64,000 nt of DNA from the NCBI GenBank assembly GCA_943840615.1, contig CALSVI010000012.1, positions 1-64,000 of the forward strand, read 5' to 3'. Shown here in pieces: positions 19,461-22,473 of this stretch. This stretch comes from an uncultured Luminiphilus sp. (GTDB taxonomy: Bacteria > Pseudomonadota > Gammaproteobacteria > Pseudomonadales > Halieaceae). The notes under the pieces are model-generated. The model was not told where the DNA came from, searched no databases, and was given only the letters and a program-made list of their open reading frames with translations. How positions within the stretch are numbered: the stretch's first letter is position 1; every line of letters begins with the position of its first letter. The position numbers and the translations under genes are program-made.

Positions 19461-19645
19461 AATTTTTCTCCTGAAACATCTGGCTGTGACGCGCATGCGC
19501 GTCTTTGATTTATTAATGACTGCCGGAGCAGTAGAAATGACCCTGCACGCTACGTGGCGTGCTGAAGGGAGTCAAATGACTGACAGGTCATGCCTCTTCA
19601 GACAATTATCTGGACATTGCCAGCATTGCCGAAAAGGCTGTTGAT

Positions 19646-19870
19646 TTAACGCCGATAAAATCTCTTGGCCAACAAAAGCATCAGACCGCCCAAAGCCGCT
19701 AACCCGAGGGTGGGCACTGTTGGCACAGGCTTGGGATGACAGATATCTGGGTCGACGCCCGCACTGATGTCGACAAGACAGTGGTCTGCCATAGCGGAAG
19801 CGGACGCGACATAGGCGACCACGCCCTTAAAAGTGGCGGTTATAGCCTGCCGGCGCGTTATCGATTGCAT
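19646..19870 (-). CDS. 74-aa precursor with N-terminal signal peptide and IPTL/VPTL-CTERM-like sorting tail
   Basis: MQSITRRQAITATFKGVVAYVASASAMA | DHCLVDISAGVDPDICHPKPVPT | VPTLGLAALGGLMLLLAKRFYRR*; AGGTGG Shine-Dalgarno upstream. Confidence 0.6.
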   Translation of the reverse strand: MQSITRRQAITATFKGVVAYVASASAMADHCLVDISAGVDPDICHPKPVPTVPTLGLAALGGLMLLLAKRFYRR

Positions 19871-19898
19871 TTTTTCCACCTGAAAACTCTTCACGTCA

Positions 19899-20654
19899 TT
19901 AGTCACGTCCAGCGTAATATGAACCTCTGTAGCCACACAAGCCTAAAAGGTTTCCCGTCAATTGCGCTAACGATGCCCATGCGTCGTGCACAACCTCAGA
20001 CCGATTCTTGGAACGCAGCGTGTAAGCGAACATCACCTTCACCCACATGAGAAATACGTTAAAAAAACGCCGCGGCAATTGAATCGACACGCCTACTGCG
20101 ATCGCAAGTGGCGTGCCGTATTTTTTTAGCATCAACATACCCGCTACGCCATGATCCAATTTTCGGTGAAATCCCACCTTAAAAGTGATTCTCTGACCGG
20201 TAATCGTCTCCCGAATCACCGCTTTGGGAACAGGGACCGCTTCGATATCCAGTGCAGCTGCCTGCCGACGAAAATCGGTATCCTCTGATCCACAGGCGTC
20301 AAATCGCGGATCAAATCGCAATTCACACTCGCGGTAGAGACTGGCATGAATCAGCAAATTGCCGCCGCCAAACCGCGTAGGCCTCTCAAACATTTGCTCC
20401 AAATTGTCCGGGTCCCTCTCGATTGCCAGAGAGTAGCCATCGGGAAAGCGATACCAGTATTGGCCATGAAACAGCCGACCCTCGGGCTTCGATTTCATCG
20501 CTTCCGTGTAGGCTTCTAACCACGATTCAATAGGGAGAACATCGTCGTCCAAGCACGCCACCCACTCAGCATCGAGCCGCTCCGCCTCAGCGAAAACACG
20601 ATTTCGGACCGCAGATAACCCAAGCTCCGGCTCTAGGAAGCAATGGGTTAGCAA
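19899..20654 (-). CDS. glycosyltransferase family 2; N-terminus probably extends upstream to about 20810
   Basis: DDDVLP DXD-like motif, GSEDTDF; open frame upstream encodes LILLAICTRDTAVFEAHCAQGIAKLSFPPGFRYEVLLVENRRE. Confidence 0.75.
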   Translation of the reverse strand: MLTHCFLEPELGLSAVRNRVFAEAERLDAEWVACLDDDVLPIESWLEAYTEAMKSKPEGRLFHGQYWYRFPDGYSLAIERDPDNLEQMFERPTRFGGGNLLIHASLYRECELRFDPRFDACGSEDTDFRRQAAALDIEAVPVPKAVIRETITGQRITFKVGFHRKLDHGVAGMLMLKKYGTPLAIAVGVSIQLPRRFFNVFLMWVKVMFAYTLRSKNRSEVVHDAWASLAQLTGNLLGLCGYRGSYYAGRD

Positions 20655-20876
20655 TCCGGTTTCAACCTTGCCTAGCCTCGGCGAAGCCTCGCGTCGGTTT
20701 TCGACGAGCAGAACCTCATAACGAAAACCGGGGGGAAATGAGAGCTTGGCTATGCCCTGAGCACAGTGCGCTTCAAAAACTGCCGTGTCTCGCGTGCAAA
20801 TCGCCAGCAGAATGAGCGGTTTCTCTTCTTTTTCTCCGCACTCGCTCAGTGTTTCTGCTCCGATTCGATCGTTTGA

Positions 20877-22473
20877 TCAGTTGCTGGATGAAGATACCAG
20901 TTCACGGAGCGTGGTTTTGAGAATCTTGCCGATGTGACTCCGCGGCAGCTCATCGAGCTGCTTGAGCGCCGAGATGCGCTGGGTTTTGCCCAGCTCGGCA
21001 TTGGCGCGAGCGCAGACTGCAACGAGGTCCAGCTGCTCACCGTCCCGCCGCGACCACAAAGCCCAAAGGCGTCTCGCCCCACTCCCTGGAGGGGATGCCA
21101 ATCACAGCAGCATCCGCCACTTCAGGTTGCTTTAGGAGCGCATCCTCCAGATCCCGGGGGTAAATGTTGAAACCGCCAGAAATAATCATGTCCTTGGAGC
21201 GGCCCAGCAGGGTAACGAAACCCTCTTCGTCTACGCGACCAATATCGCCCATGCGCTGCCAGCGCTCGCCGTGGTCGTCGTACCAACTGGCCTCTTCGGT
21301 TTTGTCGGGCTGGTTCTGATAGCCCGACATCATGGTGGTCGAGCGACCCACCAACTCGCCAATCTCGCCTACAGGTAACCGATTCAATTGCTCGTCAATG
21401 GTGAACACTTCGCTACCGCCCCAAGGGATCCCAACCGTGTGGAGCTTATCGGGGTTGGTGTCGGCGCGGAGCAGACAGACCACGCCACCCTCGGTCATAG
21501 AGTAAATCTCAATCAGCGCCCCGGGCATGCGCCGCACAACCTCGGCTTTGAGCTCCGCCGAAAACGGCGCACTGGTGCAGTACTTGAGCGCCATACTTGA
21601 GAGGTCGTAGTCATCAAACTGCGGGAAGTCCATCAGTCTCTGGTACTGCACCGGCACCAAAATGGTATGCGTCGCCCGGTGTTGCTGGGCCAGCTCCAGC
21701 CAGCGCGCGCAATCGAACTTGCGCATCAGCACCGCGGTGCCGCCGTAGGCCATGGTGGCCACAAAAATCCCCAGCGTGGTATTGGAGTACATCGGCGTAG
21801 ACAGCAGCGTTACCTGACCCGGCAACCCCAAGCCACTCTCTTCTCCCACTGCCATCTGGTACCAGCGCATCTGGCGGCTGTGCACAATGCCTTTTGGTGT
21901 GCCCGTCGTGCCGCTGGAATAGATGATGTTGTAAGGGTCGTTAGGGCCAGTCTCGACCTCAAGTGGTGTGGCACCCTCGGCGGCCATCCAATCGAACAGG
22001 AACGGCGCACCATCAGACTCGTCTGGCGCATCCATCATCACGTGCTTAAGGGTCGGCAACGCGACACCACTGTCGACGAGCTCCGCGCGCTTTATGTGAT
22101 CTATGAACAAATGCTCCGCGCCGCTATCGGTCATCATGGCGGCGAGTTGCTGCGGGGTCGCAGAGGTGGTCAGGGGCGCGGCACAGCCGCCCGCGGCAAT
22201 GGCCCCGAGATACACCAACGCATAACGAATGGTGGTGGTGCCGAGAATGGAGACTGCCTGACCCTTTTGTAGGCCCTCAGCTTGCAGCTGTGCGGCAATC
22301 CGATTCACCAGTGCTGCAGTCTGTGACCAGGTCAGCTGCTCTTCACCATCATCGAGCGCAATACGGTCTGGCTGGTTTGCGGCGTGGGCGTTAATGAGCC
22401 AAGCCAGCTCACCATAAGGCTGCTTGAGATATTGCAGCGTCTCGGTGGCGGGTATTGAGGTATTGGGAGTCAT
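20877..22473 (-). CDS. AMP-dependent acyl-CoA synthetase, interrupted by a +1 frameshift near 21044
   Basis: YSSGTTGTPKGIVHSR; C-terminal domain continues in another frame: DGEQLDLVAVCARANAELGKTQRISALKQLDELPRSHIGKILKTTLREL. Confidence 0.8.

Follow-up and report, generated by a model that had tools for sequence, protein, structure and literature searches.

A 74-residue precursor with an exosortase H-type tail beside a lone glycosyltransferase gene in Luminiphilus, a probable minimal sorting substrate

The precursor gene and its inserted segment

The window, a stretch of 64,000 nucleotides from an uncultured Luminiphilus sp., carries on its minus strand a gene for a 74-residue precursor downstream of a family-2-like glycosyltransferase gene (Table 1). 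The precursor consists of a predicted signal peptide, a core of ~23 residues with two Cys, a PVPTVPT motif, a transmembrane helix and a KRFYRR end. Its ATG lies at 19870..19868 and its stop at 19646. The initial annotation had described this ORF without stating the strand; the sequence is as given there, and the reported AGGTGG ribosome site and the 28-nt gap between the glycosyltransferase stop and the precursor ATG were both found. The putative signal peptide is visible by eye, with SASAMA followed by D at the predicted cut, as well as by hydropathy, and has a weak h-region.

Table 1. Positions of the precursor gene, its parts and its surroundings in the window
Feature	Position	Strand	Remark
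Inserted two-gene segment (glycosyltransferase and precursor)	19585..20900 (end points approximate)	minus	Empty site in seven related genomes
Family-2-like glycosyltransferase	19899..20849	minus	PF00535 17.9 bits, under the 23.3 cut-off
Ribosome-binding site AGGTGG	19876..19881	minus	5 nt spacing to the precursor ATG
Precursor gene, 74 aa	19646..19870	minus	Translation MQSITRRQAITATFKGVVAYVASASAMADHCLVDISAGVDPDICHPKPVPTVPTLGLAALGGLMLLLAKRFYRR
N-terminal signal peptide, residues 1-28 (ITRRQAI...KGVVAYVASASAMA)	19787..19870	minus	Predicted cut before D29
Core, residues 29-51 (DHCLVDISAGVDPDICHPKPVPT)	19718..19786	minus	Contains the 2-aa indel
IPTL-CTERM-like sorting tail, residues 48-74 (PVPTVPTLGLAALGGLMLLLAKRFYRR)	19649..19729	minus	Profile match; dN/dS 0.14

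The glycosyltransferase has no ATG, GTG or TTG at its conserved N-terminus (20847-20849), where a CTG with GGAG 8 nt upstream is found both here and in the Halieaceae isolate AH-326-F22 (G020); translation apparently starts at this CTG. No relatives of the enzyme were found in viral contigs, and no solved structure was found for it. The glycosyltransferase and precursor genes probably form one operon. Together they make up an insertion of ~1.3 kb, flanked by genes for an acyl-CoA ligase and a thiolase, with approximate end points at 20892-20908 (left) and ~19585 (right). In seven related genomes (G062, G036, G034, G028, G070, G061 and G024) the ligase and thiolase genes are adjacent and neither inserted gene is present; the empty-site junction was aligned for five of the seven. 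The two filled genomes are not sisters on the thiolase tree, where the genome of the window (G000) groups with G062 and G020 with G028, indicating either transfer or repeated loss, between which one gene tree cannot decide. The initial annotation had connected the precursor with exopolysaccharide genes. This link is weak, as a single glycosyltransferase stands alone between the acyl-CoA ligase and thiolase genes and the listed neighbouring genes include no exopolysaccharide cluster; the precursor is thus not part of such a locus.

The acyl-CoA ligase gene upstream is frameshifted at 21040-21060 (~21055) by one extra base compared with its relatives, leaving its last ~55 residues in another frame, which reflects either sequence error or decay. 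In G020, no acyl-CoA ligase gene was found in the interval that separates the helicase gene from the glycosyltransferase gene.

Ortholog, selective constraint and a longer Haliea protein

Among the 58 relatives searched, G020 holds the one ortholog of the precursor, a 72-residue protein with 79% identity, the same neighbours and the same stop position. Its core carries a clean 6-nt in-frame deletion, while C31, C44, H45 directly after the second Cys, TRRQA and PVPTVPT are all kept, and the DNA downstream of the gene is less conserved between the two genomes. A two-row profile search of 57 genus genomes yielded no further close ortholog, and the searched genome contigs and viral contigs contained no relatives of the precursor peptide. 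Comparison of the two genes by the Nei-Gojobori method gave a dN/dS of 0.22 (bootstrap 0.10-0.43), lowest in the tail (0.14) and 0.35 in the signal peptide; shifted frames of the same pair gave 0.67 and 3.98, and the differences per codon position were 14/5/23. That the ORF is a real gene, more than a chance reading frame, is confirmed by the ortholog in the same context, the clean in-frame deletion, this dN/dS value and the tail-profile match described below.

The precursor might instead be what is left of a surface protein gene in decay, without any function. Decay or sequence error does occur in this genome, where both the acyl-CoA ligase gene (~21055) and one substrate gene of the xrtH locus are frameshifted, and few genomes of the genus carry the insertion. 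However, the low dN/dS with its upper bound of 0.43, the in-frame indel and the conservation of the Cys pair, tail, ribosome-binding region and stop make such a remnant very improbable. As judged from the aligned pair, the gene is not decayed but exists in its short form in two species under purifying selection.

A longer protein was found beside a homologous enzyme in an uncultured Haliea (G508; CAJXWP010000080.1, L130/L137). There, a glycosyltransferase homolog with 57% identity is followed by a gene starting MLNKKPSLTRRQAIYRSLVGVFLYISVSSARAVVYLNDTSS, whose first ~35 residues (LTRRQAI..) align ungapped to the precursor, past the signal peptide. In region-wise shuffles, scores as high against the Haliea N-terminus were reached in 0/20,000 cases for the precursor and 4/20,000 for the G020 ortholog. 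The Haliea protein shares with the precursor the neighbouring gene and the similar N-terminus, but differs in going on into repeats with weak Fn3 resemblance up to the contig end, so that its C-terminus, which was sought, is not assembled. The linkage to the glycosyltransferase is retained in three genomes. Based on the ungapped N-terminal match beside the same glycosyltransferase, the precursor is best seen as a putative surface protein of the Haliea type without its passenger.

The sorting tail and exosortase H

The genome of the window (2.09 Mb, 82% complete) encodes an XrtH that scores 209 bits against a cut-off of 86 and covers profile positions 1-155 of 158. The gene for an XrtH-associated membrane protein (XrtH_assoc, 133 bits) adjoins it. 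A Cys, an Arg and a His are invariant in 12 XrtH sequences of the genus, and we take them to be the catalytic exosortase triad. The export-to-transfer model of exosortases is also applied to XrtH. XrtH is patchy in the genus, occurring in 21/57 species genomes. The G020 genome yielded no exosortase of any type; with a completeness of 88% and three tailed ends besides that of the ortholog, this genome probably just lacks XrtH in its assembly.

The C-terminal extreme of the precursor carries a P-x-P-like motif, a helix and a basic cluster, as in IPTL-CTERM proteins. Searches with the two curated models proposed by the initial annotation gave weak matches, 17.1 bits for IPTL-CTERM (TIGR04174; 17.7 in the genome search, cut-off 20.5) and 20.2 bits for midcut-by-XrtH (NF033207; cut-off 45). 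A genus tail profile was built from 13 tails, with the precursor and its ortholog left out. In the window genome it ranked two xrtH-adjacent proteins first (E 2e-12 and 1.5e-11) and the precursor third (E 9.6e-7), and it matched the G020 ortholog at E 1.4e-8, although the profile keeps some dependence on the precursor, as its rows were found partly via similarity to it. Among the proteins near xrtH, the tails VPALPAFMLFALSGLLALFGFFRASK and PVATLPTFFLLGLTGLLALFGFSRVRASK occur; a further very short protein located there ends LPVPFMPLWATITLAVALWVVAYLMRSKES. One genus tail of the same pattern (L174) scores 23.5 bits, above the NCBI cut-off for IPTL-CTERM. The initial annotation had called for a search of the genome for an exosortase and for other proteins sharing the tail, the lack of which would have spoken against its reading; the full xrtH with its partner gene and other same-tail proteins are present, so neither objection applies. 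Its assignment of an IPTL-CTERM/XrtH-type tail holds for the motif, the genus profile and the presence of xrtH, and falls short at both curated cut-offs. The view that the precursor would work like an IPTL-CTERM substrate is therefore supported, yet it is a formal member of neither IPTL-CTERM nor midcut-by-XrtH.

The precursor could also be a plain small protein of the inner membrane that has a signal at its N-terminus, an anchor at its C-terminus and an incidental likeness to sorting tails. A short helix followed by basic residues is widespread, and weak matches to the IPTL model do appear in many control genomes. We regard this as having very little probability, since the PVPTVPT-L-GL-ALGGL pattern agrees with the tails of the genus at E ~1e-6, and the occurrence of these tails follows that of XrtH in near-complete genomes. 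Strong tails occur in 4/5 genomes with XrtH versus 1/12 without it when completeness is at least 90% (Fisher P 0.01; phylogeny ignored); the tracking is less clean across all 57 genomes (12/21 versus 8/36, phylogeny again ignored).

Alternatively, the precursor could derive from a midcut-by-XrtH protein through loss of the second helix and the C-terminal domain, the N-terminal half having survived. Midcut-by-XrtH is the best curated family match, in an alignment that covers profile positions 10-62 of 175 and stops at the end of the first helix, and both proteins have a signal peptide, ~20 residues, P-x-P, a helix and basic residues. Nevertheless, the score is under half of the cut-off, the midcut proteins read from this family have neither of the core Cys and run on into a second helix, and it is the Haliea repeat protein that the precursor N-terminus resembles. 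In addition, the stop follows directly after RR and no domain of the missing half lies downstream in any frame. We consider this origin unlikely.

Several further observations concern tailed proteins. The second very short one near xrtH (L009:11611-11895) has about 80 residues counted from its ATG and one core Cys, and a copy of its tail lies in another ORF (L009:14233-14406). A tailed substrate near xrtH (L009:10688-11449) is split by a frameshift into two ORFs here and is intact, with about 213 residues, in G020 (L168). Elsewhere, L014 and L015 (G015:C15:115070-116176) are convergent genes with near-identical C-terminal regions and IPTL-type tails, and a short ORF lies between them. Weak tail matches on C8, C7 and C1 were discarded, being within or opposite other genes or too low in score.

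Proposed processing and comparison with known systems

We propose, with a probability of roughly 0.72, that exosortase H processes the precursor as a naturally occurring minimal substrate. Set against this are the scores under both curated cut-offs, the G020 genome that yielded no exosortase, the single ortholog, the partial dependence of the tail profile on the precursor, the lost C-terminus of the Haliea protein and the absence of a Tat profile match. We infer the export route, the cleavage, the acceptor and any role of the peptide or the glycosyltransferase as follows. The precursor would first be exported, TRRQA hinting at Tat, and signal peptidase would cut after ASAMA. The C-terminal helix would then anchor the protein in the inner membrane, its short core exposed on the outer side, and XrtH would cleave at or near PVPT/VPT. 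An acidic, probably disulfide-bonded peptide of 21-26 residues (predicted 2.3-2.7 kDa, pI 4.0-4.5) may finally be passed to a lipid or sugar acceptor. The initial annotation had suggested a secreted peptide with one disulfide; the two Cys that such a bond would join are conserved in the G020 ortholog. The order of steps, from export and loss of the signal peptide through anchoring via the tail to cleavage with transfer, is that of the general exosortase model for PEP-CTERM/EpsH (PMC1569441).

The twin-Arg motif TRRQA is common to the precursor, the G020 ortholog and the Haliea protein, and the h-regions of these TRRQA proteins have KD values of 1.7-1.9 versus 2.5-2.8 in two substrates of the xrtH locus. 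Motif and weak h-region together suggest Tat export; the Tat HMM profiles gave no match to the precursor. A more elaborate scheme, attractive but in our view unlikely, is that the glycosyltransferase modifies the precursor in the cytoplasm, Tat exports it and XrtH fixes a glycopeptide of ~23 residues to the envelope. The two genes would then be a module coating the cell with a short peptide in place of a surface protein, and its TRRQA signal and glycosyltransferase would have stayed linked through the loss or gain of the passenger.

The literature collection searched contained no paper naming both exosortase and XrtH, nor one joining exosortase with Halieaceae. A natural substrate with a predicted mature form of 21-26 residues would let ordinary peptide mass spectrometry reveal where XrtH cuts and which group is attached. 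Moreover, the occurrence of a short and a long protein next to homologous glycosyltransferases suggests that sorted surface proteins can lose, or gain, passengers, apparently with both end signals retained under selection.

Compared with known systems, the precursor resembles IPTL-CTERM (TIGR04174)/exosortase H (TIGR04177) substrates in its predicted signal peptide and in its C-terminal P-x-P, helix and basic end, and its genome has XrtH and XrtH_assoc; it differs in its score (17.1 versus 20.5), its TRRQ signal peptide and the lack of a passenger domain. Similar to midcut-by-XrtH proteins (NF033207), it has a short span between signal peptide and sorting motif, whereas it ends at the basic residues without a second helix and C-terminal domain and has two Cys in its core. 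In contrast to PEP-CTERM/EpsH (PMC1569441), it has no PEP motif, an XrtH exosortase and a lone glycosyltransferase instead of an EPS cluster, but it shares with that system the tripartite tail, a predicted signal peptide, a glycosyltransferase neighbour and little homology beyond the tail.
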